Shown: positions 40,921 to 60,272 of the stretch, piece by piece
Position numbering within the stretch: position 1 is the stretch's first letter
Layout: the number at the start of each line of letters is the position of its first letter
Assembly: GCA_018645325.1 (NCBI GenBank)
Contig: JABGOU010000001.1
Coordinates: 62,001-126,000 of the forward strand
DNA from: Desulfobacula sp.
GTDB taxonomy: Bacteria > Desulfobacterota > Desulfobacteria > Desulfobacterales > Desulfobacteraceae
Direction: 5' to 3'
DNA: 64,000 nucleotides
The notes under the pieces: model-generated
Seen by the model: the letters and a program-made list of their open reading frames with translations, nothing else
Told to the model about the DNA's origin: nothing
Database searches by the model: none
Program-made: the position numbers and the translations under genes

Positions 40921-40989
40921 AGACTATTCCTTAAAATTATTTTTTTTAACCCATATCCCTTGGCAAATACATCTTCTATTCTCCCACTC

Positions 40990-44753: not shown

Positions 44754-44764
44754 TTTCCAGTCTC

Positions 44765-45325: not shown

Positions 45326-45400
45326 AACACTCTCTCCATATTAAATGCTGTCCTACGACATTAATTATCTAACACATCGCAGGACAACAAGATAATGAGA

Positions 45401-46450
45401 CTACTTTACACCAAGTTCTTTTTTTGCACTGTCAACGTCTTTTAATAAGGCATCCAACAATTCCTGGGCACCGTCACCACCGATTTTTACAAATTCAGGA
45501 TAAACAGTTTTGGCAATGGCTTTGAATTCAGAAATTTTTTCTTCATCCAGAACAGTAAAAGTCGTACTGGGTTTTTCTTTCATAATTTTCTCTTTATCTC
45601 CAATATTTCTTTCATCTGTCCATTTTACTGAAGCCAAAGTTGCATCTACCCAGTATTGGCGCATTTTGTCCTGGGCATTTTTGGGTAATGAATCAAAAAA
45701 TTTCTTATTGACTGTTGGTATGCCCAGAAAAGGCTCTGCCCAGATAAGTGTTTCATAATCAGTCACTTCAAAAAATTTCATACTGTAATTTCCAAAAATG
45801 GGCTGCATTTGAGCATCAATTATACCCGTTTGAAGGCCACCATAGATTTCACCATATTGCATCGGAGTGGGGCTTGCACCATATGCTTTATAGTTTTCCA
45901 CTAACAGCTTTGAAGACATCAGCCTGAGTTTCAATCCTTTCATATCAGCCAATGAGTTAATGGGTTTTTTTGAAGTTATCCACTGCCAGCCTTCAAACAT
46001 AATGGCCAATGGAACCAAGCCCTTATCCCTGAACTTTGCTTCTAAAATTTTCATGGATTCGCCATTCTTAACTATCCAGTGAAGAGTTTCATTGATTTTT
46101 TCACGCGGCCATATATAGTGTAGTGCCAAAACTTGTGCCTGGGGAACAAATGAGCTGATCCACGCATAATCTGAGAAAACAAAATCAACTACACCAATTT
46201 GACAAAGCTCATTGATGTCTCTTGTTTCTCCTAAAGTTCCATATGGATAGACCGCAATATCTATCTTACCATCGGACCATTTTTTCATTTCTTGTGCAAA
46301 CTCTTCAGCATAGACGGTCATAAAATCACCGTCAAGCTCTTCTGATGCTAGTTTGGCCTTGATCTTTCCACCTGTGTATTCTCCCGCTGAAACACCTATG
46401 GCTGATGTTGAAATCAGTACTGCCAATAAAATGATAAAAAAATTTTTCAT
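45401..46450 (-). CDS. TRAP transporter solute-binding protein, DctP type (set 1)
   Basis: The 349-residue protein begins with a signal peptide ('FIILLAVLISTSAIGVSAGE') and has the DctP features 'YAEEFAQEMKKWSDGKIDIAV' (shown to 20: YAEEFAQEMKKWSDGKIDIA), 'YPYGTLGETRDINELCQIG', 'GLKLRLMSSKLLVENYKAYG' with the solute-carboxylate Arg, and 'PTPMQYGEIYGGLQTGIIDA'. It captures an organic acid or zwitterion in the periplasm. GGAGGGAA precedes the start. The Arg in 'LKLRLM' suits a carboxylate-bearing ligand such as ectoine. Confidence 0.9.
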   Translation of the reverse strand: MKNFFIILLAVLISTSAIGVSAGEYTGGKIKAKLASEELDGDFMTVYAEEFAQEMKKWSDGKIDIAVYPYGTLGETRDINELCQIGVVDFVFSDYAWISSFVPQAQVLALHYIWPREKINETLHWIVKNGESMKILEAKFRDKGLVPLAIMFEGWQWITSKKPINSLADMKGLKLRLMSSKLLVENYKAYGASPTPMQYGEIYGGLQTGIIDAQMQPIFGNYSMKFFEVTDYETLIWAEPFLGIPTVNKKFFDSLPKNAQDKMRQYWVDATLASVKWTDERNIGDKEKIMKEKPSTTFTVLDEEKISEFKAIAKTVYPEFVKIGGDGAQELLDALLKDVDSAKKELGVK

Positions 46451-46588
46451 GAAAAATTCCCTCCTGTTTAATGGTTAGTTATGGCTGATTAGACCCGACT
46501 TCTTATGGTTGGTTTTTCCTCAGCACTATAAATTATCAACAAAATAAAAAATAATGGTATATACCTAGTAAAACATGAAATGCTGGCA

Positions 46589-47323
46589 TCAAAGAAATCC
46601 TTTATAGGAACATTGGACAACAGCAGTGAATACAAATTTAATCATTGTTACATAGTCGAAAACCGGTAGATTGACTGCGTTTTGTACAGACAATGCGTAT
46701 GGTGGCAACAGGCTGCATTCCAGTAGGATGGCACGGATAGCAGGGTCATCGGCCACCAGTTCCTTGGCCGTATCTACAACCTCATTTTTAACCGCTTCAA
46801 CATCCAAACGCCCAGTTTCTTTAATTGCGAATTGATCAAAGTTAGGTTGATCCTCCAACCCGGCAATCATCAAATTAGATGAATTTGAAACGCCCACGGC
46901 CGTTAACAAATCTGCGGTTAAATTTTTCGCATTGGCAGTTATAACACCAATTTTTGAATCGATACCAATAATAGTAGAGATAAAAGGAATCTGAGTAAGG
47001 CTTGACAAAAAAATGGGAACTTCAATTTCTTTGGCAAGTTTTTTTTGGTGGATACCCATAAAACCGCAACCACCGGTGATTGCTCTTACTCCCTGCTGTT
47101 CCAGTGATTTTGCTGATTCTAATAGATTTTTATATATGGAAGGATCTTTGCCAATCGCTTTTTGAACTGAAAAACCATCTACATTTTGATACCTGATGGG
47201 AAAGGGGTAGGTTGATGCATTATTAACATCCCCGGGAATAAATGCCACGGGGCTACTTTCAAGCGTGAGTATGCCAATCGCCTCACCACCAGTGTATTGT
47301 CCCTTTTTGCCATGATAAATCAT
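46589..47323 (-). CDS. Aspartate/glutamate racemase family protein
   Basis: The 244-residue protein has the two-Cys active site of the family, in 'AITGGCGFMGIHQKKLA' and 'AILLECSLLPPYA'. Members are racemases, hydantoin racemases or decarboxylases, and EutA of hydroxyectoine use falls in the same superfamily; I cannot say which this is. GGGAGGAG precedes the start. It lies between the M20 scrap and TRAP set 1. A second, heavily deleted copy is visible at 48941-49024. Confidence 0.8.
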   Translation of the reverse strand: MIYHGKKGQYTGGEAIGILTLESSPVAFIPGDVNNASTYPFPIRYQNVDGFSVQKAIGKDPSIYKNLLESAKSLEQQGVRAITGGCGFMGIHQKKLAKEIEVPIFLSSLTQIPFISTIIGIDSKIGVITANAKNLTADLLTAVGVSNSSNLMIAGLEDQPNFDQFAIKETGRLDVEAVKNEVVDTAKELVADDPAIRAILLECSLLPPYALSVQNAVNLPVFDYVTMIKFVFTAVVQCSYKGFL

Positions 47324-47452
47324 CTCTCCTCCCTCACAAACATAAGGTTTATTTTATAAGTTGTATTCACAACATTTTTGTAATGAACATAACCATGGCT
47401 TTTATTTTGTTTTATGTCAAGTCTTTTTTAAAAAAAAATCAAAAGGCAATTA

Positions 47453-47872
47453 TCATTCTTTAACCGATTGAGTTAAAAAGGTCAAAGCGCCTTTGACATG
47501 CAACTCTGCGTCTTTCATTAAAACGTATTCGTCGATATTAAAACTGGGGTTGTGCAAGGGAATATCCGTTTTCTTTTCCGGGTCAGCACATCCCAGAAGA
47601 ATAAAAACACCCGGCACACGGGATGTATACTCACTGAAATCTTCACTGGTGATATACCGGCCTGGATCAATCACATCAATACTGCCAAATACCTCGGCAG
47701 TTGTTTGTTTAGCAAAGGCCGCCATCTTTTCGTCATTGACCAAAGGAATGTTTTCATGTTCAATTTTTATGTCGCAGGAACATTGATGCGCCCGGCAGAT
47801 GGCTTTGCTGATTCGGACAAACCTTTGGGTTGGATTGTTATCGTCATCCGATGCCATACCGTAAGATAAGAT
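47453..47872 (-). pseudogene. C-terminal scrap of an M20 amidohydrolase
   Basis: About 139 codons remain, aligning with residues about 265 to 405 of the complete M20 enzyme at 54762-55988: 'NPTQRFVRISKAICRAHQCS' against 'KPTQRFIRVAEQVCATHRCR', and 'SEDFSEYTSRVPGVFILLG' against 'SEDFSEFSEKVPGVFIFLG'. Similarity starts at 'ILSYGMASDD', directly after a TGA at 47875-47873, so the whole N-terminal two thirds including the metal-binding residues is gone. A residual open frame from ATG 47857 cannot be active. Confidence 0.85.
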
Positions 47873-47936
47873 TCAAAAAACGCCATTCAAAAATGCGTTA
47901 CAAGAGATTATGGGTATGGTAGATCAGTTTGCAGGT

Positions 47937-48929
47937 TTAATCCATGGATATTTTAATACCAAGGTTTTGATTTTCAGCCTGTTTCATTGCAAGATCAGCA
48001 ATGGCAGTATCCTGAACACCGGTACCGGAAAAATCACAGATGGTAATTTGTTCCTCTGACTGTCTTCCCTTATGAATGCCGGATATGATGTCACCCAGTT
48101 CCAAAACCTGGTTTTCATCCAGCTGGATACCGTCGGCTTTGGTATTAAACAGCTCACCTGCTGAAAAACTTTGGGATCGTTTGTCGCAGGCAATAATATC
48201 GGCTTTTGCAAACACCTCTGACATGATTTCCTGTTTGTCCGGCAGGTCAGCTCCCATGGCTGTAATATGCAGGACAGGATGAATAAAGGCAGGATCAATA
48301 AAAGGCTTTTTGGAAGGAGTGCAGGTAACCACAACCTGACTTTGGGTCACAACTTCTTTAACGTTTCGGGCAGCAAGAACCTCTACGTCAAGCTGTAGTG
48401 CCATATCCTTTACATATTTTATCAAAAGTACCGGATCCTTGTCATAGACCATAAGCTGTTTAAAATCTCTGACCTGTTTTAAGGCCATCATCTGATATCG
48501 TCCCTGGGCACCGGCACCAATCACACCGGCACATGTTACGCTTTCAGGTGCAAGGTATTTTGCCGCTACAGCACCGGCCGCAGCAGTTCTGACATCCGTC
48601 AGGTAAGCATTGTCAAGCAAAATGGCTTGTGTCATACCGGTTACAGCACTGATCACAACCATCATCGCAGGACTTGAAGGCAAGCCCAGTTTGTGGTTTT
48701 GAAAGAAACCAGCGCCTATTTTAACGGCAAACCGATCAAGATTCTTTACATAGGCGGACTTAATGTCAACATCTCCCTTATGTTCCGGGATTTCAATATG
48801 CATGATGGGCGGCATGGTGACCAACCCTTTGGATAGCCATAAAAAAGCATTGGCAACAGCATCAATGGATGCTTTATCAATTTTGACAATATCCCGAAGT
48901 TCTTTTTCAGTTAATATAAGGACACTCAT
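47937..48929 (-). CDS. eutC: EutC-like ornithine cyclodeaminase/mu-crystallin family protein
   Basis: This protein of about 330 residues is an ornithine cyclodeaminase-family NAD enzyme: 'MPPIMHIEIPEHKGDVDIKS', 'DNAYLTDVRTAAAGAVAAKY', the NAD loop 'GVIGAGAQGRYQMMAL', 'LHITAMGADLPDKQEI' and 'DFSGTGVQDTAIADLAMK'. This combination fits EutC of hydroxyectoine utilisation better than true cyclodeaminases, from my recall of the family. Its neighbours EutD-like and EutB-like support this. ATG 48929 follows GGAG; a TTG one codon earlier is less likely. Confidence 0.75.
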   Translation of the reverse strand: MSVLILTEKELRDIVKIDKASIDAVANAFLWLSKGLVTMPPIMHIEIPEHKGDVDIKSAYVKNLDRFAVKIGAGFFQNHKLGLPSSPAMMVVISAVTGMTQAILLDNAYLTDVRTAAAGAVAAKYLAPESVTCAGVIGAGAQGRYQMMALKQVRDFKQLMVYDKDPVLLIKYVKDMALQLDVEVLAARNVKEVVTQSQVVVTCTPSKKPFIDPAFIHPVLHITAMGADLPDKQEIMSEVFAKADIIACDKRSQSFSAGELFNTKADGIQLDENQVLELGDIISGIHKGRQSEEQITICDFSGTGVQDTAIADLAMKQAENQNLGIKISMD

Positions 48930-48940
48930 CAATATTTCTC

Positions 48941-49024
48941 CTACATAAATCCTTTGTACGGTTTTTTAACCACGGCATTGACAACTTCTGCCTTGATTTT
49001 TTGGGTATCAAGGCTTCCCTTTTT
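48941..49024 (-). pseudogene. Scrap of a second Asp/Glu racemase gene
   Basis: Directly after the EutD-like 2 stop, the same frame reads 'KKGSLDTQKIKAEVVNAVV' and 'KKPYKGFM' to TAG 48943-48941. The first part matches 'GRLDVEAVKNEVVDTAKELV' and the end matches 'CSYKGFL' of the racemase at 46589-47323, with the middle missing. A GCCTTGAT/ATCAAGGC hairpin falls inside it. It might also be read as a lost C-terminal extension of EutD-like 2, which is less likely. Confidence 0.6.
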
Positions 49025-50194
49025 TTATTTTACAAATAATTGTCTGGGGATGGCGGCAAAAGTTTTGCATCCGTCCGGGGTAACATAAATAGCTTCGCTG
49101 CATTCAAATCCCAGCGTATCTGTCCATATGCCCGGCATAACGTGAATGGTCATGCCCGGTTGGATAACAGTTGTATCACCCGGTCTCAGACTGATGGTGT
49201 GCTCTCCCCAGTCCGGCGGGTAGTTTGCTCCGAATGAATATCCGATCCGGGATTCTTTAACCACCCTGGAACCGGAAATGGACTCCCGCCACTTGGCTTC
49301 AATATCCTGGGCCTGGATACCGGGCTTTATGAAATCCACCACGGTATTCAGTCCGTGAATCACTGTTTTGGAGATTTCATTCAGCTCCCGGGAGGGTTTT
49401 CCCGTGATAACGGTTCGAGATAAAGGGGCATGATACCGGTGCTTGCATCCGGACAATTCCAAAAGGACAATCTCATCTTTTTGATATTTTCTGTCTGTCC
49501 AAGACAAGTGAGCAGTGGTTGTCCTTCTGCCCGACGGCATGATGGGAATTATGGCAGCGTAATCTCCTGTAAACTCCTTTGTACCAGCGATCATGGTTTT
49601 ATACACCTGGGCTGCAACATCACCTTCTCTGACACCTGGCTCGATGAGATTTACAGCGGTTTCCATAACATTTTCAAGGATTTTTCCAGCCATTTTCATA
49701 TAGTCTATTTCTTTGTCTGACTTGATGGCTCTGAGCCAGTTGATGATCAGTTCGCCGTCCAGGATCTTGGCAATAGGAAGTCCTTTTACCAGATGTTCGT
49801 AACACCTGGCTGTGAAATAATAATTATCTTTTTCAACACCGATGGTTTTGTCGGCACACTCGTGTTCCTTAATCAGGTCTACCACAAAATCATAAGCGTG
49901 GATGGTCTGGGACTGAACATAATGATCGGGATAACCAATGATGTTGTCATCATCCAACCAGGTAGTGATACGGGCGCCATTGCTGTCCTGCGCTCGCCCG
50001 AACCAGACAGGCTGATCCTTATCTTTGAAAATAATCAGGCCCTGGTGGACGTAAAAAGACCAACCGTCATACCCAGAGATATAATTCATATTGGCAGGAT
50101 CTGTAACAATGAGACCATCCAGGCCTTTTTTGGCCATCTGTTCTTTTGTTTTGTTTAATCGTTGCCGGTATTCGGAAACGTCAAAATAAAGCAT
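49025..50194 (-). CDS. eutD: EutD/DoeA-like M24-fold hydrolase, paralogue 2
   Basis: The 389-residue protein has the EutD/DoeA layout: 'DPANMNYISGYDGWSFYVHQ', 'VWFGRAQDSNGARITTWL', 'IIGYPDHYVQSQTIHAYDF', 'NYPPDWGEHTISLRPGDTT'. Glu246 in 'LLELSGC' and 'RYHAPLSRT' replace the usual M24 Asp metal ligands, which suggests a metal-independent reaction as in creatinase and EutD. Ectoine hydrolase opens the pyrimidine ring of ectoine to N-acetyl-diaminobutyrate. It sits directly between the EutB-like and EutC-like genes, so of the three paralogues this one is the best eutD candidate. Confidence 0.82.
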   Translation of the reverse strand: MLYFDVSEYRQRLNKTKEQMAKKGLDGLIVTDPANMNYISGYDGWSFYVHQGLIIFKDKDQPVWFGRAQDSNGARITTWLDDDNIIGYPDHYVQSQTIHAYDFVVDLIKEHECADKTIGVEKDNYYFTARCYEHLVKGLPIAKILDGELIINWLRAIKSDKEIDYMKMAGKILENVMETAVNLIEPGVREGDVAAQVYKTMIAGTKEFTGDYAAIIPIMPSGRRTTTAHLSWTDRKYQKDEIVLLELSGCKHRYHAPLSRTVITGKPSRELNEISKTVIHGLNTVVDFIKPGIQAQDIEAKWRESISGSRVVKESRIGYSFGANYPPDWGEHTISLRPGDTTVIQPGMTIHVMPGIWTDTLGFECSEAIYVTPDGCKTFAAIPRQLFVK

Positions 50195-50208
50195 TCTCTA
50201 AACTCCGA

Positions 50209-51210
50209 TTATGTTATGGATTTTTCTTTTGGTGACAGATATCTGGACAGGATGTCAAAGGCCAGATTTTTATCCACGTTTCCGCCGGAAAGGATACCGG
50301 CAATATGGTTTCCCGGAACCTCAATCTCTGGTTTTAAAAGCCAGGCCAGGGTAACAGCAGCCGCACCTTCTATGAGAATACCATGGTGTTCATAGGCAAA
50401 CAAAATTCCTTTTTCAATCTCTTTTTCACTGACAAGCTCAATGGTGTCCACATATTTTTCAACCATGGAAAATGTAAATTGATTGTCCAGACCGATTCCA
50501 CCTAAAAGGGCATCGGCCAGAGAGTCTTTTTCCTCTACTTCCACGGGCTTCCCTGCTTTGATGGAATGATACATGGCAGGAGCACATTCCATGGACACTC
50601 CGATAATCTTTATACTGGGATCTGCGGTTTTTAACACTTTGGCCACGCCGGCAGCCAGTCCGCCACCGGAAACCGGGACCACCAAAGTGTCAACATGAGG
50701 AGCCCGGTTTAATATCTCCAGGCCAATGGTGCCCTGGCCAGCGATGACAAGCGGATCATCAAAGGGCTTGATCATGGTTAAGTTTTCATCTTTCTCAAGC
50801 TTCAATGCAACTTCATAGGCATCATCCTGACTTTTACCTTTCTGTACAACAATTGCCCCGAATTTTTCCATGGCCGCAACTCGGTATTGGGGGACACGCT
50901 CAGATAGGCAAACCACGCATTTAATACCAAACCTGCCAGCGACATATGCAACGGCCCGGCCGTGATTCCCGGTTGAAAAGGCCAGGACGCCTTTCTCTTT
51001 CTGAGCGTCTGACAAGCTCAGCAGGGCATTGGCAGCCCCCCGCAGTTTAAAGGAACCTGTTTTTTGGAGGCACTCCAGTTTTAAAAGAATTGATTTTCCT
51101 AAACGATCCGACATTGATGGAGACTCAACAAGCGGCGTATGCCGGACCATGCCTGCAATTCTTTTTTGGGCCTGAAATATTTTTCTTAAGGTAATATCTG
51201 TTTGACTCAT
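50209..51210 (-). CDS. eutB: EutB-like PLP dehydratase (threonine dehydratase family)
   Basis: This protein of about 333 residues is a fold II PLP enzyme with the Schiff-base Lys in 'TGSFKLRGAANALLSLSD', the 'FSTGNHGRAVAYVAGRFG' Asn loop and the 'PVSGGGLAAGVA' phosphate loop. The stretch 'AGKPVEVEEKDSLADALLGG' followed by 'IGLDNQFTFSMVEKYVD' resembles EutB of hydroxyectoine use more than biosynthetic threonine dehydratase, and no regulatory ACT domain is present. EutB removes the hydroxyl from the hydroxyectoine-derived product. ATG 51210 is preceded by AAGGGA; an earlier start at 51240 would overlap dctM. Confidence 0.78.
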   Translation of the reverse strand: MSQTDITLRKIFQAQKRIAGMVRHTPLVESPSMSDRLGKSILLKLECLQKTGSFKLRGAANALLSLSDAQKEKGVLAFSTGNHGRAVAYVAGRFGIKCVVCLSERVPQYRVAAMEKFGAIVVQKGKSQDDAYEVALKLEKDENLTMIKPFDDPLVIAGQGTIGLEILNRAPHVDTLVVPVSGGGLAAGVAKVLKTADPSIKIIGVSMECAPAMYHSIKAGKPVEVEEKDSLADALLGGIGLDNQFTFSMVEKYVDTIELVSEKEIEKGILFAYEHHGILIEGAAAVTLAWLLKPEIEVPGNHIAGILSGGNVDKNLAFDILSRYLSPKEKSIT

Positions 51211-51223
51211 CTGTCTTTTTCCC

Positions 51224-52909
51224 TTATCTAAAGGCCACATCTCTTAAGTAAAGCGCAATCTCCGGGAAGAAGATCATCGCTACAGCGACGCTTAAGAGAA
51301 TGAATATAAATGGCGGTGTTCCTTTGACAACTTCAATGTAAGGGCGTTTAAATATTGCAATAGCGGTAAAAATATCACAGCCAAATGGCGGTGTGGCAGA
51401 ACCAATGGCACATTGGAGCGTAATAATCGTACCCACTAAAACAGGATCAAGTCCAACATCATGAACAACAGGTGCAAAAATAGGCACTAAGATCAAAATC
51501 ACCACAATCGGATCAACAAACATACATCCGACAAAAAAGGCAACAGAGATAACAAAGAGTACGTCATATTGGCCCATCTCAGAAATGCCGATCATCCCCA
51601 AAAGTTGTTGGGGAACTTGCGCATAAGATAGCACCCAGGCAAAAGCAGCTCCAGCACCTACCAGGATAAAAACAACGGCTGTCACTAACCCTGTTGACTT
51701 GGCGGTTGCATAAAAGTCGTCAAGCTTCATCGTTTTAAAAATAAGGCCCTCCAGCACGATGGCATACGCCACGCTCACAGCTGCTGCTTCTGTGGGGCTG
51801 AAGATACCGCCGAAGATTCCACCGATAATAATAACCGGGAATCCCAAAGGCCACAGTGCGTGATACACTGCCTTTCCCCGCTCGCTCCATGAGGCTCTCT
51901 GTTCGGTGGGGATCTTGTTTAAACACGCATAGATAACACTGTAGATTGAAAACAAAAGTAAGATCAACAGTCCGGGACCGATTCCTGCGATAAAAAGTTC
52001 AGGTATAGAGGCTTTCGCGACAATTCCATAGATAATCATGCCAATGCTGGGAGGAATCAGAAAAGCAATATCACTGGAGTTGATAATGAGTGCTAAAATA
52101 AAGGAGTCTTTGTATCCCCCTTCTTGCAGCTTGGGACGGAGGGGTGATCCAATCGCTACAACAGTAGCTTGAGTCGAACCGGAAACCGCACCAAACACCG
52201 CACATGCTCCAGCTGTACTCACAGCAAGCCCCCCTTTGATGTGTCTGACAAATGCCATCACTAGATCAATCAGTTTTCCAGCTGACTTACCTCTGGTCAT
52301 AATATCGGCTGAGAGGATAAACATTGGCACGGCAATGAGTGCTGCCGGACGAATCCCTGCCATCATCTGCTGAATCATAAACTGCATCTGTGACATATCC
52401 CCATCGTATAGCAGATACACCCCAAGCGTTGCTCCGGCAATCAGAGGGATCTTCATAGGAAACCCTAATAGCAGTAAAATGACCATCAGCAAAAATATAG
52501 TAGCAGCAAAATGATTATTCATAAACCCAACAAAACTAAAACTGGTATCCAAGACAGCTATAGAGGTGGTTTGTGCCATTGTTTTTCCGGCTTCATCTTT
52601 AAGCATTGCTGTAATGGTGATCTTACCATCACTCAGTGTGTTGATATCAACCTCTTCAACGCCCCAATTGCCGATTTTATTGATCTCAGCAGTTAGTTCA
52701 AGACTTTTTTCGTCACCATCACTTAAGGTGATACTCACCTCTTGCCGTCTAACCACACCCTCGGCATAGCCGTACACAAAAAGTTTTGTTTTTTGTTCAA
52801 TCATTGTCTCTTCTATGACCACTGTGGCAGAATCTGATGCAAAAAGAGGCATGGTAAAAAAACAACTGAACGCAAATAGCAGTATTATTTTCTTAATTTG
52901 AAATCTCAT
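51224..52909 (-). CDS. TRAP large permease DctM with N-terminal Ig-like domain (set 2)
   Basis: The protein of about 561 residues has two parts. Residues 1-25 are a signal-type helix ('IILLFAFSCFFTMPLFASDS'), and 28-125 form a bacterial Ig-like sandwich ('IGNWGVEEVDINTLSDGKIT', 'LKDEAGKTMAQTTSIAVLD'). From about 130 a normal DctM follows ('CAVFGAVSGSTQATVVAIGS', 'IINSSDIAFLIPPSIGMII', 'GGIFGGIFSPTEAAAVSVAY'). Standard DctM is about 425-430 residues, so about 130 residues are extra. The Ig domain should lie in the periplasm, perhaps docking the binding protein. Two ATGs (52909, 52912) and a GTG (52915) are adjacent; 52909 has the best spacing from GAGG. Confidence 0.88.
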   Translation of the reverse strand: MRFQIKKIILLFAFSCFFTMPLFASDSATVVIEETMIEQKTKLFVYGYAEGVVRRQEVSITLSDGDEKSLELTAEINKIGNWGVEEVDINTLSDGKITITAMLKDEAGKTMAQTTSIAVLDTSFSFVGFMNNHFAATIFLLMVILLLLGFPMKIPLIAGATLGVYLLYDGDMSQMQFMIQQMMAGIRPAALIAVPMFILSADIMTRGKSAGKLIDLVMAFVRHIKGGLAVSTAGACAVFGAVSGSTQATVVAIGSPLRPKLQEGGYKDSFILALIINSSDIAFLIPPSIGMIIYGIVAKASIPELFIAGIGPGLLILLLFSIYSVIYACLNKIPTEQRASWSERGKAVYHALWPLGFPVIIIGGIFGGIFSPTEAAAVSVAYAIVLEGLIFKTMKLDDFYATAKSTGLVTAVVFILVGAGAAFAWVLSYAQVPQQLLGMIGISEMGQYDVLFVISVAFFVGCMFVDPIVVILILVPIFAPVVHDVGLDPVLVGTIITLQCAIGSATPPFGCDIFTAIAIFKRPYIEVVKGTPPFIFILLSVAVAMIFFPEIALYLRDVAFR

Positions 52910-52918
52910 CATCACACC

Positions 52919-53497
52919 TCAAACCTCAATATCAGTGTCAGTGTCAGAATATCCATCCTTAACATTGGTTGAAAGATAGACATCTTTTTCTGTTAGATTC
53001 TTAACCACCGTAAATGCGTACTGCAATCCTGTCACAACAAAACCAATGGGTACCCACAAATAGATATAAAAGACGGGCAGCCCCAAAGCCGGCAAAATCC
53101 GTCCACTCTTATACACCTCAAAAATATAGTAGTACGAATAAAAAGAGAGAAAAAACATAAACGCCGACGTCACGGATGCCATCACAATCATCAACGCTTT
53201 GCGCGTCTTTGCGGGCATTGCATCATAAATAGCAGACATCCTGATATGTCGTCCATTGCGTGCTGCGTAACTTAAGCCTGCATACGTCACCACAACGATA
53301 AATATCATATTAAGCTCATCAGTAAAGGTAATCGCACTATTAAAAACAAACCGACTAATCACAGCGGCAATGGTATTAACAGTCATTGCTATCACTCCAA
53401 CAGCCAGCATAACCCCTTCAAACCTGCTTATTAAGGTATCAATAAAATCGAGCATTTTTAATATTGGATTGAGCCTAGTTTCTTCTACTTCATCCAT
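52919..53497 (-). CDS. TRAP transporter small permease, DctQ type (set 2)
   Basis: This protein of about 192 residues has four membrane helices with 'ITFTDELNMIFIVVVTYAGL' and 'NGRHIRMSAIYDAMPAKTR'. ATG 53497 is chosen because GGAG lies just upstream (GGAGAAAAG); a longer frame to 53530 would include that site. It partners the flanking dctM and dctP. Confidence 0.9.
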   Translation of the reverse strand: MDEVEETRLNPILKMLDFIDTLISRFEGVMLAVGVIAMTVNTIAAVISRFVFNSAITFTDELNMIFIVVVTYAGLSYAARNGRHIRMSAIYDAMPAKTRKALMIVMASVTSAFMFFLSFYSYYYIFEVYKSGRILPALGLPVFYIYLWVPIGFVVTGLQYAFTVVKNLTEKDVYLSTNVKDGYSDTDTDIEV

Positions 53498-53572
53498 CTT
53501 TTCTCCTGAATAGCAAAATAGATCGCGCATAAAAAATTACAATCTATTTTGCTATTCTTTGTGTTTTTAAGA

Positions 53573-54607
53573 TTATTTAGCGTTTGCTTCCGCTTCTTTT
53601 AGATCAGCCATCATTTGACCCAAAACTTTTTTGTTTGAAGCGCTCTTTGATGCAAACGACGCTTGTACAACCTTTGCAGCTTTTATAAACGGTGCCCGCT
53701 CACTTTCAGTGAGTGTCACAATCTTATAGTCTGGGTTGGTTCTGACAATGCGACCAACGCCATAAGCATCCAGCTTTTGAGCCTCAACTAGGATAATTTT
53801 GTGTGCATGGGCAGCAGCTGCGTGAACAAGTTTTTTATCTCTTTCGCTAAGCTCGTCAAAAAACTTTTTGTTTGCTGATGCTGATGCATTGAAGTGTCCA
53901 TGTCCGGTATATGTCAATACTTTTGTCAAGTTATCCAGATCATATGCTTCAATCCATACAGTTGGATTTTCCTGACCATCTACCATATTAGTCTTAAGTG
54001 CACCAATCAGATCGCCCCAGCTCATTGGAACAGGTGAAGCACCAAAGGCTTTATAGGTCTCAACCAAGATAGGCGATCCCGGCATAACACGCATCTTTTT
54101 GCCCTTTAAATCTTCTGGTGAGTGAAATGGAACAAAGGTTGTAACCGCCATCTCACCTTCCGGGAAGATAGAGAGTAACTCAAGTCCGTGTTGATTGAAA
54201 ATTGGAGGAAGCATATTGGTAATCGCTTTTGAGTTTTTGAAAAAATAATCAAGCTGCTTCGTATCTGTTGGCAGAACATAAGGCAGTGTAAACAGATCCA
54301 TCTCAGGAATCGTACCACCCATATAGCCGGTTGATTGTCCTAAAAACTGTAAGATCCCAGCTTTAGTTTGTTCCATCATATCCGTCTCTTCGCCAAGGCT
54401 TCCTACTGGATAGATTTTGATTTTATGTCTGGAATTTTCCTCAATGTAGCTCTTAAATGCCACAGCATAGATACCTTGGGGATCACTCAAACCCTCTCCC
54501 ATTGCATACTTCCACTCCGCTGCATACACGTTCATACCTGTTACTGCGATCAGCAGACATCCTGCAAGTAATACTTTAAATACTTTTAAACTCATAATTT
54601 TTTCCAT
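53573..54607 (-). CDS. TRAP transporter solute-binding protein, DctP type (set 2)
   Basis: The 344-residue protein has a signal peptide ('VFKVLLAGCLLIAVTGMNVY'), 'FKSYIEENSRHKIKIYPVGS', 'GEETDMMEQTKAGILQFLG', and the ligand Arg in 'LKGKKMRVMPGSPILVETYK'. 'ASPVPMSWGDLIGALKTNMV' completes the family pattern. It is clearly related to DctP set 1 but diverged in the ligand region. AAGGAG precedes ATG 54607. A perfect inverted repeat lies upstream. Confidence 0.9.
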   Translation of the reverse strand: MEKIMSLKVFKVLLAGCLLIAVTGMNVYAAEWKYAMGEGLSDPQGIYAVAFKSYIEENSRHKIKIYPVGSLGEETDMMEQTKAGILQFLGQSTGYMGGTIPEMDLFTLPYVLPTDTKQLDYFFKNSKAITNMLPPIFNQHGLELLSIFPEGEMAVTTFVPFHSPEDLKGKKMRVMPGSPILVETYKAFGASPVPMSWGDLIGALKTNMVDGQENPTVWIEAYDLDNLTKVLTYTGHGHFNASASANKKFFDELSERDKKLVHAAAAHAHKIILVEAQKLDAYGVGRIVRTNPDYKIVTLTESERAPFIKAAKVVQASFASKSASNKKVLGQMMADLKEAEANAK

Positions 54608-54642
54608 TGTCCAACTCCTTTTGTATTTGGGCCGAAAATTTT

Positions 54643-54684
54643 ATAAGTTGAACGAAAATCCTTCACAATTTATGTTCAACTTAT
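54643..54684. promoter_or_regulatory. 11-bp perfect inverted repeat upstream of TRAP set 2
   Basis: ATAAGTTGAAC (54643-54653) and GTTCAACTTAT (54674-54684) are perfect inverted copies with a 20-base gap. On the minus strand no T run follows, so an operator or mRNA processing hairpin between the M20 gene and dctP is more likely than a terminator. Confidence 0.5.
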
Positions 54685-54761
54685 TTCATCTCCGATCCTT
54701 GGGTTAATATATGGTTTTTGATTCGGCTGATTTGTAGTAAATATAGTTTCACCAGCTCCCC

Positions 54762-55988
54762 TTACTTTTGTTTTAAAAATGATAATTGGTTTGCCTTTTC
54801 AAAAAAATGGAGTGTGCCCCGGACAAATATCTCCACCCCCTTTGGAAGGATTGTCTCATCGATATTGAATTTCGGATGGTGGTGGGATAGATTCGTCCCG
54901 ATGGCCTCGTTACCCGCTCCAAGGAAGATAAATACCCCCGGCACCTTCTCGCTGAATTCTGAAAAATCTTCACTGGCAATTGTCTGATTGTCGATGATCT
55001 CTTTTTCAGAAGGAAAAATTTCAATGGCGGTTTCCCTCGCCAGGGCGGTCATTTCTTTATGATTGATCAATGGTATATTTTCATGGGTGATATCGATGTC
55101 ACACCTGCATCGGTGCGTGGCGCATACCTGCTCGGCAACACGGATAAATCGTTGTGTCGGCTTCTCTTCACTGTCCGGTCCGCCCGGGTAGAGAAACCGT
55201 ATGGAACCTTCCAGTTCCACTTTATCCGGGATAATATTGCTTTTGGTGCCACCTTTGATTTTTCCGAACATGATGACGGTGGCTTTCAGATTGCTGATCT
55301 CTCGTGTTTGGATGATCTGTGATGTCTGGATAAGATTTGCCGCAGCAATGATGGGATCAATAGCGTCTTCCGGCAACCCCGTATGGCCGCCTTTACCGTG
55401 GATGGTAATCTTGAAAACATCCAGCCCACCCATAACCGGTCCCGATGTGATAGCGATTTTTCCCGAATCAATCGGTGTCCAGACATGGATACCCATCACG
55501 GCATCAACTTTGGGATTTTCCAGGACTCCCTCTTCTATCATATGGATGGCGCCTGCGATTTCTTCGTTGGGTTGAAAGACAAATTTGATTTTACCATTTA
55601 GAGATGTTTTGTTTTCTTTAAGTACCCGGGCAGCCACCAGAAGCATGGCCATATGTGCATCATGACCACAGGCATGCATGACCCCTTCATTTCTTGACTT
55701 ATAATCCACCTCATTGATTTGGGTGATTGGCAGGGCATCCATATCGGCCCGCAGCATCAATACCGGGCCTGGTCTGCCGCTGTCAAGAATAGTGACCACA
55801 CCTGTTTTAGCCATCCGAATTGTTTCATATCCAAGATTCTGAAGATAATTTTCAATCTTCTCAGCAGTCCTGAATTCCTGGAAACCCAGTTCAGGATACA
55901 TGTGAAAGTCACGGCGAAGTGCAATAAGTTCTTGTTTAAGCTCGAGGATCCGGTTCTGGATATTATCTGGTTCTTTTGTGGTATTCAT
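54762..55988 (-). CDS. M20D family amidohydrolase (aminoacylase/hippurate hydrolase type)
   Basis: The 408-residue enzyme is complete: 'MLRADMDALPITQINEVDY', the metal-binding 'MHACGHDAHMAMLLVAARVL', 'KFVFQPNEEIAGAIHMIEEG' with the catalytic Glu pair, and 'ASEDFSEFSEKVPGVFIFLG'. M20D enzymes remove acyl groups from N-acyl amino acids. In a eut-like region that lacks EutE/DoeB it could hydrolyse N-acetyl-diaminobutyrate; this is inference. It follows EutD-like 3 by 25 bases. A second copy survives as a scrap at 47.5 kb. Confidence 0.9.
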   Translation of the reverse strand: MNTTKEPDNIQNRILELKQELIALRRDFHMYPELGFQEFRTAEKIENYLQNLGYETIRMAKTGVVTILDSGRPGPVLMLRADMDALPITQINEVDYKSRNEGVMHACGHDAHMAMLLVAARVLKENKTSLNGKIKFVFQPNEEIAGAIHMIEEGVLENPKVDAVMGIHVWTPIDSGKIAITSGPVMGGLDVFKITIHGKGGHTGLPEDAIDPIIAAANLIQTSQIIQTREISNLKATVIMFGKIKGGTKSNIIPDKVELEGSIRFLYPGGPDSEEKPTQRFIRVAEQVCATHRCRCDIDITHENIPLINHKEMTALARETAIEIFPSEKEIIDNQTIASEDFSEFSEKVPGVFIFLGAGNEAIGTNLSHHHPKFNIDETILPKGVEIFVRGTLHFFEKANQLSFLKQK

Positions 55989-56013
55989 GGGAAAATGCCT
56001 TTTTTGTCTTTAC

Positions 56014-57186
56014 TTAAATGACAAATAATTTTCGGTCAAAGGATGCGAATGTTTTGGCACCCGTTTGGGTTACCCTGAAAGATTCAGAGCATTCAAATCC
56101 GAAATTATCCATCCACATGCCCAGAATCATGTGAAAGGTCATATTGGGTTTTAAAATCGTCTTGTCTCCGGGCCTCAGGCTTGCCGTGTGCTCGCCCCAG
56201 TCCGGGGGATAATTTAGCCCCATGGAGTATCCGATGCGGGATTCCTTTTCAAACCCCTTTCTGGCAATGTGTTCCCGCCAGATCCGTTCCACATCTTCTC
56301 CCGTGAGTCCGGGTTTGATGCTTTCCAGGGTCAGGTTCAGTCCTTCCACAGTGATATCTGCAAGGGTCTTAAGTTTTTCCGGGGGATTGTTCCCGATAAA
56401 GGCGGTTCTTGCTATGGGACAATGGTAACGATTCCGGCAGCCTGCCAGTTCAAGATTTACAGCCTGGCCGCTTTCATAAGGATCATCCGTCCATGTCAAA
56501 TGGGGGGCAGAGGTTTTTTCACCCGTTGGCATCATGGGGACGATGGAAGGATAGTCGCCGCCAAAATCAGGCGTGCCGGACACTTGGGCCTGGTAGACAG
56601 CTGCCACTGCATCACATTCCCGGGTACCGGGGGCAAGATTGGCAAGGGCGGTTGACATGACTTTTTCCGCAATTTTTCCGGCCTGCTTCATCAAATTAAT
56701 TTCTGCATCTGACTTGATAATTCGTACCCAGCTGACCAGCAGGTTGCCGTCTAAAAGGGTGTCTTTTCCCAGACTTTTTTTCAGTTCCATGTCGCTTCTT
56801 GCCGTATAATAATAGGCATCGGTTTCAACCCCGATCGTTTTTTGAGCCCATCCTTTTTCTTTGATGATGTCTGCCATAAAATTCATGGGATGTTTGATAT
56901 CAGACTGGACATAATCATCCGGATACCCTATGGCGTTCTCGGGCCGGAGAAAAGCCGTATGTTTGGCTCCGTTCGTATCCATGCCCCTGCCAATCCAGAC
57001 GGGTTCTTCCTGGTCGTCAATTACCAGGACTGCCTGGGGAACATAAAAGGACCAGCCGTCATAACCTGTGAGATAATTCATATTAGCAGGGTCACACACC
57101 ACAAGTATTTCAATTCCCTTTTTTGCCATGGACTCCTTGGTTTTGGTGATCCGTTCAAGGAATTCGTTTCTACTAAATAAGGTCAT
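56014..57186 (-). CDS. EutD/DoeA-like M24-fold hydrolase, paralogue 3
   Basis: The 390-residue protein closely resembles paralogue 2: 'DPANMNYLTGYDGWSFYVPQ', 'VWIGRGMDTNGAKHTAFL', 'YPDDYVQSDIKHPMNFMAD', 'NYPPDWGEHTASLRPGDKT'. Glu246 lies in 'NLELAGC', and 'RYHCPIART' replaces the metal-binding segment. GGAGGA precedes the start. It lies directly upstream of the M20 gene, so hydrolysis by the EutD-like enzyme followed by deacylation by M20 is an attractive order of reaction. Confidence 0.82.
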   Translation of the reverse strand: MTLFSRNEFLERITKTKESMAKKGIEILVVCDPANMNYLTGYDGWSFYVPQAVLVIDDQEEPVWIGRGMDTNGAKHTAFLRPENAIGYPDDYVQSDIKHPMNFMADIIKEKGWAQKTIGVETDAYYYTARSDMELKKSLGKDTLLDGNLLVSWVRIIKSDAEINLMKQAGKIAEKVMSTALANLAPGTRECDAVAAVYQAQVSGTPDFGGDYPSIVPMMPTGEKTSAPHLTWTDDPYESGQAVNLELAGCRNRYHCPIARTAFIGNNPPEKLKTLADITVEGLNLTLESIKPGLTGEDVERIWREHIARKGFEKESRIGYSMGLNYPPDWGEHTASLRPGDKTILKPNMTFHMILGMWMDNFGFECSESFRVTQTGAKTFASFDRKLFVI

Positions 57187-57272: not shown

Positions 57273-58439
57273 CTAGATGCCGGCAATACCTTTTTCCAGC
57301 TTTTCCAGTGCTGTTTCAATATTCCGGGAGCTTGTGGCAAAGGAGAGCCTTGCAAATCCTTCTCCATTCTCTCCAAATATGGAACCCGGTAAAAGAGCCA
57401 GTTTATGCTCTTTAACCATATATTTTGCAAAATCCCAGGATGACATCCCAAAAGAAGAGATATTGGGGAATGCATAAAAAGTAGATTCCGGCTTGACGCA
57501 GGAAATACCTTTAATGCTGTTAAGCCCATTATACATCAATTCCCTTCTTTTGGCATACCGTTCCACCATCTGTTTGACACAATCCTGTGATTCGGTTATG
57601 GCCGCAAGGGCTGCCCGCTGGGCAACTGCTGTCACCCCGGACACCATATGTTCCATCAGTTTTTCCATTTCATCGATGATGGCTTTGTCGGCCACCACAT
57701 ATCCGACCCTCCAGCCCGTCATGGCATAGGATTTGGAAAGTGTATAAATGGAAACAGTCAAATCTTTCATGCCATCAAGAGATCCTATGGAAACATGTTC
57801 ATTCCCGTCAAACAGGATGTGTTCATAGGGTTCGTCCGAGATAACCATAATTTCGTGTTCTTTACAGATGGCCGCAATCTGTTCTAAGCTTTCTCTATCA
57901 AACACTGCACCCGTTGGATTTGAAGGTGTATTCAAGATAATGGCCTTGGTTTTGAGAGTTACGGCTTTTTTAACGTCTTTTGGGTCAAGCTTGAACCGGT
58001 TTTCTTCTTTGACTGCCACCCTGACCGGTACCCCTCCGAACAGACGGATCTGGGAATAATAATCATACCCCGGATCAACGACAATGACCTCGTCTCCGGG
58101 GTTAACAAGATGAAGCATGACATTAAAAATTCCCTGCATCGCCCCCACACTGATAAATATTTCAGAATCCGGGTCTGCCTGCAATTTGTTTTCAGCCTCA
58201 ACCTTTCGGGCCACAGCTTCTCTTAAATCCTGGAACCCTGCGGCCGGCGGATATCGGGTATACCCCTGGTCAAGACCCTTTTTGGCGGCATCCCGTATAT
58301 GGACCGGCGTGTCAAAATCCGGCTGACCAATACCCAGGTTCGTCACCCCTTCTATTTTATCAGCCATGGCAAACATTATTCGGATACCGGACCACTCCAC
58401 TCCGGCATTCCTTTTGGCAAATAACTTTTCAATATTCAT
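57273..58439 (-). CDS. Class I/II PLP aminotransferase
   Basis: The 388-residue enzyme has the fold I aminotransferase features: 'VTNLGIGQPDFDTPVHIRDA', 'EIFISVGAMQGIFNVML', 'LNTPSNPTGAVFDRESL', 'MVISDEPYEHILFDG' and the PLP Lys in 'TLSKSYAMTGWRVGYVV', with Arg in 'ARLSFATSSRNIE'. It resembles aspartate/aromatic aminotransferases. Placed upstream of EutD-like 3, it may deaminate an amino acid released by the EutD/M20 steps, a role that DoeD fills in ectoine users. The specific substrate is unknown. Confidence 0.9.
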   Translation of the reverse strand: MNIEKLFAKRNAGVEWSGIRIMFAMADKIEGVTNLGIGQPDFDTPVHIRDAAKKGLDQGYTRYPPAAGFQDLREAVARKVEAENKLQADPDSEIFISVGAMQGIFNVMLHLVNPGDEVIVVDPGYDYYSQIRLFGGVPVRVAVKEENRFKLDPKDVKKAVTLKTKAIILNTPSNPTGAVFDRESLEQIAAICKEHEIMVISDEPYEHILFDGNEHVSIGSLDGMKDLTVSIYTLSKSYAMTGWRVGYVVADKAIIDEMEKLMEHMVSGVTAVAQRAALAAITESQDCVKQMVERYAKRRELMYNGLNSIKGISCVKPESTFYAFPNISSFGMSSWDFAKYMVKEHKLALLPGSIFGENGEGFARLSFATSSRNIETALEKLEKGIAGI

Positions 58440-58465: not shown

Positions 58466-59413
58466 TTAAGGTTTTGTAAGAACCAGATCTTTGGCGCCTT
58501 TGTTAGAAGTCAGCATTTCAGGCGCATGTTTATCCATAATCTCCATGACAATTGAGGCAATTTTAACTTTTTCTTTAATAAAATTTTCATGCCACTCCTC
58601 TGCAACCCAAGGCATGTAAATGTCTGCTTCAGATGTACCGGGTTCAAATTTAAAATAGCAAGGAGAAGCCACTTTAGCGATTTCCGGCGCTTCATAGGCT
58701 CTGAAGCTACCGCCAAAGGAAAGTGGCACGATGATGTATACATCCAGCGGGATATCAATTGCCTGACGGATGGAAGATAAGATGGGCCGAGAAACATCGC
58801 AGACTGGATTCAGCGAATTGGCACCCATACTTTCAACGACTTTTGCACCGGCTGCGCTACCGCACCCGCCAAATACTGAAAATTTAAAAATGGTTTCAGC
58901 AGGAATCAAACCTTCTGCCCTCATTTTATTAAGCAGAAACAAAACCCCTTCGTCATAGACAAGAAAACCTCTGAATCCTAAGTCGATACTCCTCATGATG
59001 TCAGCAATATGATAGGAAATATTATCTGATCCCCGATGACGGGGACCCTGAACCTGGCCTTCGGAAGTACAGGACTCCTTGGCACCGGCGTCCCATGCTT
59101 TTCGATGACCAACAGTCATAATAGTTTCAATATTTTCATCTTTGGCCATTTGAGCCATATCTTTTAATTCATGGGCATCACAATATGTGGATCCGCCAAC
59201 TGCTGCAATGGCGCGATGAATAACGACATTTCTTTTGTGAGACTCTTTAATCATGGCCTCCATTGTGCTGGCACGTTCAACGCCTGCAATTTCTATTCTG
59301 AAATTTGCTCCGTCAGGAAATGCTTTGCCCGATGCTGCAAGTTCATACCCATCCCGTCCCGGGATTCCCTCTTTTTCCATAAAATTTCTGATTGTATTTA
59401 GTACTTCACTCAT
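58466..59413 (-). CDS. Peptidase U32-like TIM-barrel protein of unknown function
   Basis: The 315-residue protein resembles proteins labelled U32-peptidase-like in clostridia and other anaerobes: 'GANFRIEIAGVERASTMEAM', 'RHRGSDNISYHIADIMRSID', 'LGFRGFLVYDEGVLFLLNKM', 'SPCYFKFEPGTSEADIYMPW'. The label comes from recall and the actual activity is not known to me; no protease motif is evident. It lies five bases from the panB-like stop and upstream of the aminotransferase, so it belongs to that unit. Confidence 0.6.
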   Translation of the reverse strand: MSEVLNTIRNFMEKEGIPGRDGYELAASGKAFPDGANFRIEIAGVERASTMEAMIKESHKRNVVIHRAIAAVGGSTYCDAHELKDMAQMAKDENIETIMTVGHRKAWDAGAKESCTSEGQVQGPRHRGSDNISYHIADIMRSIDLGFRGFLVYDEGVLFLLNKMRAEGLIPAETIFKFSVFGGCGSAAGAKVVESMGANSLNPVCDVSRPILSSIRQAIDIPLDVYIIVPLSFGGSFRAYEAPEIAKVASPCYFKFEPGTSEADIYMPWVAEEWHENFIKEKVKIASIVMEIMDKHAPEMLTSNKGAKDLVLTKP

Positions 59414-59417
59414 GTGG

Positions 59418-60272
59418 TTATCCTTTTTTTAAATTTGTTATCAGTTTATCCAGTTCTCCATCCACCATTTTATAGGTATGTTCCAGCGCTGGAAATTTGC
59501 CTTCCTTTACATCATCTCTGTAATCTGAAAAAGCTTTAATCGTTTTGTCTGCAAGGTTTTCATACTTTTTTACAAATTTTGGGGTAAAGGCCTGAAAAAC
59601 CCCGGCCACATCAGAAGAAATCATCAACTGACCATCGGCATCAATACCGGCCCCTATGCTGTATACAGGAATGGTCAATGTTTTCCTGATAATATTACAG
59701 ACTTCCGGGGGTACCGCTTCCACCAGCACTGAAAATGCACCTGCTTTTTGAATCGCTTTAGCATCTTCAATCAACTCAAAGGCTGCGTCAGCCGTTCTTC
59801 CCTGGGCTTTAAACCCGCCTAACTGACCTGAACTCTGAGGGGTCAGACCTATATGTCCCATTACCAGCATCCCGCCGTCCGTGATTGCCCGGATTTGGGG
59901 GCAGACCCTTTTGCCACCCTCAAGTTTGATGGCATCCACTGCCGCTTCTTTATGGAATCTTCCGGCATTCAATACTGCATTTTCAATGCTGATCTGATAT
60001 GAAAGAAACGGCATGTCACCGACGATAAATGTATTTTTTGCAGCCCTGCGAACCGCTTCTGAATGATAGATACATTGCTCCATGGTAACAGGCACTGTAC
60101 TTTCATATCCATAAACACACATCCCAAGTGAATCACCGACCAGAATCATATCCATACCGGCTTTTTCTGCAAAAGATGCGTTCCAGTAATCATATGCAGT
60201 TATCCATACTGCCTTTTCACCGGATTCCTTCATTTTTTGAAGATCCCATCTTGTTAATTTTTTCTTGCCCAT
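59418..60272 (-). CDS. PanB-like ketopantoate hydroxymethyltransferase homologue
   Basis: The 284-residue protein has the PanB features 'MILVGDSLGMCVYGYESTVP', 'YQISIENAVLNAGRFHKEAA', 'DAIKLEGGKRVCPQI', 'MGHIGLTPQSSGQLGGFKAQ' and the catalytic Glu in 'SVLVEAVPPEVC'. PanB adds a hydroxymethyl group from methylene-THF to a 2-oxo acid. Here no panC or panD is near, and the gene heads a catabolic operon with an aminotransferase and hydrolases, so a breakdown role on a related oxo acid seems more likely than vitamin synthesis. That is inference. GGGGGCAAA precedes the start. Confidence 0.85.
   Translation of the reverse strand: MGKKKLTRWDLQKMKESGEKAVWITAYDYWNASFAEKAGMDMILVGDSLGMCVYGYESTVPVTMEQCIYHSEAVRRAAKNTFIVGDMPFLSYQISIENAVLNAGRFHKEAAVDAIKLEGGKRVCPQIRAITDGGMLVMGHIGLTPQSSGQLGGFKAQGRTADAAFELIEDAKAIQKAGAFSVLVEAVPPEVCNIIRKTLTIPVYSIGAGIDADGQLMISSDVAGVFQAFTPKFVKKYENLADKTIKAFSDYRDDVKEGKFPALEHTYKMVDGELDKLITNLKKG

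Follow-up and report, generated by a model that had tools for sequence, protein, structure and literature searches.

Degradation of ectoine is described as proceeding via N-alpha-acetyl-diaminobutyrate (N-alpha-acetyl-DABA), diaminobutyrate (DABA) and aspartate semialdehyde to aspartate, with the gene order uehABC-usp-eutABCDE in Ruegeria pomeroyi and with 3FXB and 2VPN/2VPO as structures of ectoine receptors (PMC5924519). A mutant-supported ectoine route encoded by doeBDAC has been reported for Methylotuvimicrobium, in which DoeB shares no more than 22% identity with its Halomonas counterpart (PMC7192451). Putative ectoine clusters of Thermodesulfobacteriota, called tentative, have been in print since 2026, with the cluster of Desulfospira joergensenii presented in Figure 1D; they consist of 9-13 genes, usually include two eutD homologues and lack both eutE and ssd, the legend of the figure names the TRAP-type uehPQM together with eutA, eutB and eutC, some genes are left grey and the word 'panB' has 0 occurrences in the main text (PMC13188858). 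The locus addressed here is orthologous to these clusters and is located in a stretch of 64,000 nucleotides (the window) of Desulfobacula sp. (GenBank assembly GCA_018645325.1, contig JABGOU010000001.1, positions 62,001 to 126,000, forward strand), where genes for EutB-, EutC- and EutD-like proteins and two TRAP importers are accompanied by a paralogue of the ketopantoate hydroxymethyltransferase PanB (PanB2) and by a TIM-barrel protein termed U32x.

Comparison of the encoded proteins suggests, with a probability of about 0.6, an operon for the catabolism of ectoine-type compounds, the lower half of which is non-canonical. The receptor of the importer termed TRAP-1 provides the strongest evidence for ectoine as the solute. 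The best matches of this binding protein among the PDB sequences are the UehA entry 3FXB (290 bits), 3GYY (279 bits), a TeaA entry, and TeaA 2VPN/2VPO (271 bits), with the next receptor, 4pfi, at 124 bits, such that no other TRAP receptor of solved structure is as close to the protein as UehA/TeaA; the protein also possesses a DGQENP motif. Equally, a search with UehA against the window's own genome yielded seven matches in total, with TRAP-1 first (288.6 bits, 46%), followed by TRAP-2 (180.8 bits, 36%) and a third protein (71 bits). The TRAP-2 receptor, without the motif, scores 183 (3fxb), 159 and 156 bits with the ectoine receptors, with the next non-ectoine protein at 140 bits.

A preliminary description of this DNA had proposed an undescribed anaerobic route for ectoine-type osmolytes. 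As PMC13188858 reports orthologous clusters, the finding as first stated is already in print. The real oddity of the locus is the part with PanB and the TIM-barrel protein, which had gone unmentioned, as had the IclR regulator and a truncated M20 gene. New as far as found, relative to PMC13188858, are the comparison of the receptors, the group formed by the operon PanBs, the link to U32x and a relative of the locus in Chloroflexota; the window furthermore differs from the clusters displayed there in having three EutDs and two importers.

The locus and its genome

From the IclR end, the genes follow each other in the order given here, with the operon flanked by the IclR regulator on one side and by the iron alcohol dehydrogenase and AOR (39046-42156) on the other side.

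60421-61185, minus strand: IclR-family regulator at the operon head (Pfam IclR_C, 175.6 bits)
59418-60272, minus strand: PanB2, ketopantoate hydroxymethyltransferase paralogue (TIGR00222, 294 bits, cut-off 207.55)
58466-59413, minus strand: U32x, TIM-barrel protein of 315 residues (predicted fold)
57273-58439, minus strand: class I aminotransferase, AT12 (Pfam Aminotran_1_2, 270 bits)
56014-57186, minus strand: EutD1, ectoine-hydrolase-like, M24 fold (TIGR02993, 475.8 bits)
54762-55988, minus strand: M20 amidohydrolase, candidate N-acetyl-DABA deacetylase, DoeB2-like (TIGR01891, NF038260)
53573-54607, minus strand: TRAP-1 substrate-binding protein, UehA/TeaA-like (PDB sequence matches)
52919-53530, minus strand: TRAP-1 small membrane subunit (assigned from its position; retained in several relatives)
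51224-52915, minus strand: TRAP-1 large membrane subunit (TIGR00786, 334 bits, above cut-off)
50209-51240, minus strand: EutB-like pyridoxal-phosphate-dependent dehydratase (PRK07476, TIGR02991)
49025-50194, minus strand: EutD2 (TIGR02993, 461.8 bits)
47937-48932, minus strand: EutC-like reductase of the cyclodeaminase family (PRK08291, TIGR02992)
47453-47857, minus strand: remnant of a second M20 gene, limited to the C-terminal part (tblastn)
46589-47323, minus strand: Asp/Glu-racemase-family protein, possible EutA stand-in (PRK07475, 273.5 bits, cut-off 231)
43479-46450, minus strand: TRAP-2 importer, three subunits, with the binding protein, a weaker UehA relative, at 45401-46450
42199-43392, minus strand: EutD3 (TIGR02993, 468.4 bits)
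40990-42156: iron alcohol dehydrogenase, after the EutD3 part
39046-40920: AOR, after the EutD3 part
14589-16022: MttB-family protein, in the window

The EutB-, EutC- and EutD-like, TRAP, M20 and aminotransferase genes initially named are all uninterrupted and read from the minus strand. EutC-like, EutD2, EutB-like, TRAP-1, M20 and EutD1 genes are located within 47937-57186, with EutD3, TRAP-2 and the aminotransferase just beyond. The gene set initially described, in which an EutB-like, an EutC-like and three EutD-like genes are joined by two TRAP importers, one M20 hydrolase and one aminotransferase, is thus confirmed by open reading frames and NCBIfam matches, and the presence of AOR, hcp and an MttB-family protein was confirmed as well. 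Like a eutABCDE-type cluster, the window possesses a UehA-type TRAP importer and EutB, EutC and EutD homologues; unlike such a cluster, it has an IclR regulator, an M20 protein instead of EutE and, in addition, PanB, U32x and a class I aminotransferase. EnuR was not seen among the operon genes.

The genome is a draft of 4.39 Mb and 90% completeness with Desulfobacula, Desulfotignum and Desulfospira joergensenii as named kin. The label of a sulfate reducer rests on these named relatives, because a search for dsrA recovered no more than an incomplete hit of 156 bits (positions 1-111), which does not reach the cut-off. Acetyl-CoA synthase is encoded in the genome. The initially proposed ectoine-type route in an anaerobe has gained from the UehA/TeaA-like receptor and from the anaerobic kin of the genome; its substrate can only be inferred, because the EutD-like proteins score below the family cut-off and are positioned outside the reference group.

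EutD-like proteins and opening of the ring

For EutB, EutC and all three EutD-like proteins, an Eut model is the best or second-best NCBIfam match, and the closest solved structure to EutD1 is the ectoine hydrolase 6TWK with 372 bits and about 45% identity. Affiliation of EutD1 with creatinase or prolidase, which the preliminary description had named as the alternative outcome, was rejected, with prolidase at 84 bits and creatinase at 31 bits. Among 56 columns invariant in five reference EutDs, in windows chosen by eye, EutD1 retains 45, EutD2 39 and EutD3 37, while seven paralogues retain 23-38 and three other members of the reference group 44-48. The columns retained in EutD1 include E255, RYH and YPPDWGE; E255, which we take to have a role in EutD, and RYH are present in EutD1-3, with E255 occurring also in paralogues. 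In a midpoint-rooted tree of 61 sequences with long branches, for which the program cautioned about possibly false deep joins, a supported reference group of eight rows contains four EutDs encoded beside doeB/eutE, 6TWK and three other alphaproteobacterial proteins. EutD2 and EutD3 group with a protein of Priestia (support 98/95), EutD3 pairs with the EutD of a Chloroflexota contig (L087; support 100/98), and the branching order among EutD1, haloarchaeal and other alphaproteobacterial paralogues is without resolution. Because of the counts of motif columns and the placement in the tree, EutD1 can be regarded as a good candidate for ring opening, with EutD2 and EutD3 less sure. Ectoine-type uptake and ring opening as such appear quite likely from these comparisons.

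Several observations weigh against ectoine as the substrate. EutD1-3 remain 137-151 bits below the TIGR02993 cut-off of 613 bits, all three are located outside the reference group, and the tree does not split them from EutD paralogues with other gene neighbours, with EutD2 and EutD3 at the upper edge of the paralogue range of retained columns. Equally, the M20 protein falls 254 bits short of the DoeB2 model NF038260 (296.1 bits versus a cut-off of 550), and many relatives possess behind EutD1 and M20 only an importer of the TRAP-2 type, with its more weakly UehA-related receptor. The EutD-like proteins might open or cleave another zwitterionic solute or an N-acyl amino acid, be it methylated, N-acetylated or cyclic, in which case M20 would be a deacylase. 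Consistent with such an improbable alternative, beyond the scores below cut-off, EutD-like paralogues of alphaproteobacterial plasmids have M20, racemase, gamma-glutamyltransferase or ABC importers as neighbours, without a complete eut set; on the other hand, the TRAP-1 binding protein clearly belongs to the UehA/TeaA group, and EutB and EutC reach or nearly reach the cut-off of a family.

Within an ectoine-type reading, the locus might be mixed, with EutD1 and TRAP-1 serving ectoine, EutD2, EutD3 and TRAP-2 diverged to a related solute, and two partly decayed operons fused, a possibility somewhat short of even odds. The separate group of EutD2, EutD3 and the Priestia protein and the weaker TRAP-2 receptor devoid of DGQENP are in line with it. 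So is the remnant at 47453-47857, where tblastn with the M20 protein against 46500-49100 recovers residues 234-399 only, and which may reflect the fusion of two paralogous operons, one partly lost. Equally, in one relative (G004; L040, 14670-15860), EutD2 is interrupted by an in-frame TGA after 321 codons, for which decay is likelier than selenocysteine, and EutC is fragmentary, because of which the EutB-EutD2-EutC part seems dispensable. However, TRAP-2 shows no fixed association with EutD3, because in many relatives an importer of its type immediately follows EutD1 and M20.

EutD-like genes were also encountered in other surroundings. A plasmid of Rhizobium etli Mim1 (L122) carries genes for a racemase, an EutD-like protein (575.6 bits, below the cut-off), eutB, eutC, M20 and an aspartoacylase-family protein, and on a plasmid of Halorussus vallis (L126) an EutD-like gene is directly followed by a gene annotated as glutamate dehydrogenase GdhB, just as EutD1 adjoins a GDH-family protein in some operons of Desulfobacterota. 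Furthermore, 28 Klebsiella plasmid records match ectoine hydrolase, the five listed being annotated as doeA.

EutB, EutC and a replacement of EutE

EutB, 46.6% identical to EutB of Sinorhizobium meliloti, misses both of its models, PRK07476 by 2.3 bits (410.7 versus 413) and TIGR02991 with 378.3 versus 413.35 bits. EutC, 44.7% identical to its S. meliloti counterpart, is above the cut-off of the 'cyclodeaminase' model PRK08291 (410.8 versus 408 bits) and below that of TIGR02992 (351.5 versus 471.65 bits). The beta-hydroxyaspartate pathway was set aside, with EutB at 410.7 versus 220.9 bits for BhcB and EutC at 410.8 versus 182.1 bits for BhcD. As for EutA, the racemase-family protein matches PRK07475 only; S. 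meliloti EutA has no match at 1e-3 among 24 window reference proteins, the rest of the genome not having been searched.

Neither EutE nor Ssd was found among the operon genes, and an EutE over the cut-off was not found in the genome, which is 90% complete (best score 98.1 versus 402.7 bits). Because of this latter result, the M20 protein, above the cut-off of TIGR01891 with 355.6 bits, probably serves as the deacetylase in place of EutE. An M20-type deacetylase would be a reasonable substitute by analogy, because the DoeB2 model matches the M20 protein, if below its cut-off, and because of the Methylotuvimicrobium DoeB, inferred to be of the M20 type. The Methylotuvimicrobium system differs from the window in that it performs intracellular ectoine turnover in an aerobic producer and includes DoeD and DoeC (PMC7192451).

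A cluster on a Priestia plasmid (Bacillota, L032) resembles the window in that eutB, an EutD-like gene, a cyclodeaminase gene and M20 occur together; it differs by the addition of homoserine dehydrogenase, a cystathionine gamma-synthase-family enzyme and an aldehyde dehydrogenase, by a PucR regulator and by an MFS transporter. On the same plasmid, a gene annotated as 2-dehydropantoate 2-reductase (1527-2579) is found about 8 kb upstream of eutB.

Conservation of the operon with PanB and U32x

The arrangement is not due to chance, because it recurs in the genomes of relatives. EutD1 orthologs are present in 12 relatives besides the window's own genome with 73-93% identity, while G090 possesses an EutD2-type match only. 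PanB and U32x are located upstream of EutD1 in 9/9 relatives whose contig reaches there; in the other three, the contig starts inside U32x (G019) or inside the aminotransferase gene (G036, G057). EutB was observed in four of those nine relatives within the stretches read (G001, G004, G014 on another contig and G034), and EutB/EutC are not the constant core of the operon. Among 97 relatives, the EutD1 query matches 14 and the U32x query 13, with both in 11, EutD1 only in three, U32x only in two and neither in 81 genomes (Fisher 2.7e-10, not corrected for kinship). In one of the U32x-only genomes (G031), the contig ends after the aminotransferase.

With U32x as bait, a sample of 60 loci was collected, in 59 of which neighbours within 10 kb were counted (L115, a fragment only, was dropped). 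Sufficient flanks, at least 2 kb to the left and 4 kb to the right, exist in 38 loci, many from close kin, with an EutD-like gene in 22 and none in 16. The 22 EutD-bearing loci encode PanB in 19, M20 in 21, TRAP components in 20 and a racemase in 16 cases; an aminotransferase is present in 16, a glutamate-dehydrogenase-family protein in five and either of them in 21, with a GdhA-type protein (below cut-off) in the position of the aminotransferase in L074. EutB occurs in at least 11 of the 22, the stretches ending 10 kb out. A gene labelled IclR lies no more than 10 kb from U32x in 35 of the 59 loci, and a usp gene behind the TRAP genes, which the window does not have there, was recognized by Pfam in L048 and by BLAST in 3/59 loci. 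L038 and L068 represent the Desulfospira joergensenii locus. On the Chloroflexota contig L087, a distant TRAP importer, a relative of EutD3, a racemase, M20 and U32x are encoded consecutively.

U32x itself matches no Pfam family at E 5 and no NCBIfam model at 1e-5, and phmmer against the PDB recovered chance matches only (E 1.5 and worse). The AlphaFold2 model is a confident TIM barrel (pLDDT 91.8), for which the fold search returned weak TIM-barrel matches (TM about 0.5) with class II aldolases first; such matches to a predicted model assign no function. Although two distantly related plasmid proteins (35% and 31%) carry the annotation U32 family peptidase, this identity is not supported, with no family match at these limits and one U32 structure at rank 13 among the weak fold matches.

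A dedicated PanB group

The core residues of PanB are retained in PanB2, one of three PanB proteins of the genome. At least two PanBs are encoded in 13 of the 14 genomes with an EutD1 match (own genome included) and in 22 of the 83 genomes without. A midpoint-rooted tree of 56 PanBs, with long branches and the program's warning that deep joins may be false, included from U32x loci PanB2 of the window and 31 further PanBs no shorter than 220 residues, as well as proteins of 20 extra, hand-picked PanB loci. All 32 U32x-linked PanBs, from Desulfobacterota, Chloroflexota, Bacillota and Synergistota, form with seven others one group on a long stem (support 100/99), and 17 rows are positioned outside, numbers seven and 17 being no census. 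The outside rows, among them the C35 copy of the window's own genome, are presumed to be housekeeping copies, because the sole PanBs of five genomes (G007, G041, G061, G067, G072) lie there. Invariant columns are common to 39 PanB2 and 13 other PanB rows; nine positions differ as a set between the groups, including an exchange of isoleucine to tyrosine beside the IGAG loop.

Seven members of the PanB2 group are found apart from U32x. A class I aminotransferase is located beside three of them (L132, L139, L143), accompanied by an alanine dehydrogenase in L139 and by an FAD oxidoreductase and an MttB-family methyltransferase in L143; a tartrate-dehydrogenase-type enzyme and MttB adjoin the PanB of L140; and in L054, of the own genome, and in L134, a 421-residue protein and a GDH-like CBS protein are encoded beside it. 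The neighbours of the seventh, L144, were left out of the tally. Beside PanB with U32x, an amino-acid-dehydrogenase-type protein (L102), a glutamate-dehydrogenase-family protein (L089, L074) or a 2-hydroxyacid dehydrogenase (L090) is found. A common theme at these loci is an enzyme able to make a 2-oxo acid, and then PanB.

The 421-residue protein of L054 (C77, 2429-6488) and L134 gave no hit in Pfam or NCBIfam within the limits applied and is 55% identical to a protein beside U32x and PanB in Acetomicrobium (L104). The FAD enzyme of L143 is sarcosine-oxidase-like. Homoserine betaine is the head group of betaine lipids, and L132, L139, L140 and L143 could encode a route for homoserine betaine that ends in cleavage by PanB.

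Proposed route and its lower half

The following scheme is put together from the kinship of the proteins. The operon would feed a marine sulfate reducer on ectoine and probably also on 5-hydroxyectoine. TRAP-1 would import the solute, EutD1 would open the ectoine ring to N-alpha-acetyl-DABA and M20, replacing EutE, would remove acetate to release DABA, while EutB, EutC and perhaps the racemase may handle the hydroxyl group of hydroxyectoine, as proposed for known clusters. The aminotransferase, or in some relatives the glutamate-dehydrogenase-family protein in its place, would deaminate DABA. The carbon skeleton might then pass from DABA via aspartate semialdehyde and homoserine to 4-hydroxy-2-oxobutanoate (HOB); alternatively, DABA might directly give the 4-amino analogue of HOB. 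PanB2 would cleave the C4 oxo acid to pyruvate and methylene-tetrahydrofolate (methylene-THF), with both the direction and the acid deduced, and U32x would act beside PanB2 in a step left unnamed. Pyruvate and methylene-THF would subsequently be oxidised with sulfate; these products suit an organism oxidising via the reverse Wood-Ljungdahl pathway, a direction that the pathway may take in Desulfobacula (PMC8318568).

A precedent for this chemistry is found in engineered Escherichia coli, where a transaminase is reported to produce HOB from homoserine and the panB enzyme to convert HOB into pyruvate with transfer of the one-carbon unit to THF (PMC6966089). That pathway is synthetic and HOB is called non-natural (PMC6966089), while the one considered here would be natural and catabolic. 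Among the matches listed, cleavage of HOB by PanB was found described only for engineered E. coli, although a natural HOB route may have escaped notice; equally, no paper on experimental ectoine use without oxygen was found among the matches listed. Cleavage by PanB2 is judged possible, if not favoured. The complete proposal, a natural anaerobic pathway in which ectoine and, by means of related sets of genes, other homoserine- or DABA-type compounds are converted into 4-hydroxy- or 4-amino-2-oxobutanoate and cleaved by a dedicated PanB group with U32x to pyruvate and methylene-THF, is put forward more tentatively.

A number of findings argue against such a lower half. PanB is missing in 3/22 EutD-bearing U32x loci and in 11/16 without EutD, and in G017 PanB, U32x and the aminotransferase are present with genes other than EutD behind. 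The operon contains no homoserine dehydrogenase, the only one of the genome being encoded elsewhere, and the Priestia cluster, though equipped with homoserine dehydrogenase, shows neither PanB nor U32x within the part of the sequence read. The label of the outside PanBs as housekeeping is weakened as PanC was found beside PanB at none of 22 PanB loci examined and as a LarA-type racemase neighbours the C35 copy; in G090, the operon copy is the only PanB found.

The alternative is an ordinary lower half, in which DABA would be converted via aspartate semialdehyde to aspartate by AOR or other aldehyde oxidising enzymes, with PanB contributing to the supply of coenzyme A or ketopantoate. The known route indeed ends at aspartate (PMC5924519), AOR and the iron alcohol dehydrogenase follow the EutD3 part, and distant AOR homologues are located near the operon in several relatives. 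However, with the 24 window genes as BLAST references, AOR reaches only about 28-33% identity in the neighbourhoods of relatives and the alcohol dehydrogenase has no match there, while PanB is retained in most EutD-bearing loci, the operon PanB belongs to a group other than the sole PanBs of five genomes and two further PanB copies exist in the own genome. An ordinary lower half is thus considered unlikely, and the ectoine-type operon with a non-canonical lower half is retained as the preferred reading, with the PanB route as the part worth testing.

Significance

Ectoine is a widespread osmolyte, and it would become linked to sulfate reduction through an operon of which Desulfospira joergensenii DSM 10085 possesses an ortholog. 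If true, cleavage of a C4 oxo acid by PanB2 would furthermore give a family of vitamin biosynthesis a catabolic job, provide a role for a TIM-barrel family without assigned function and constitute a direct one-carbon feed into the oxidative Wood-Ljungdahl pathway.

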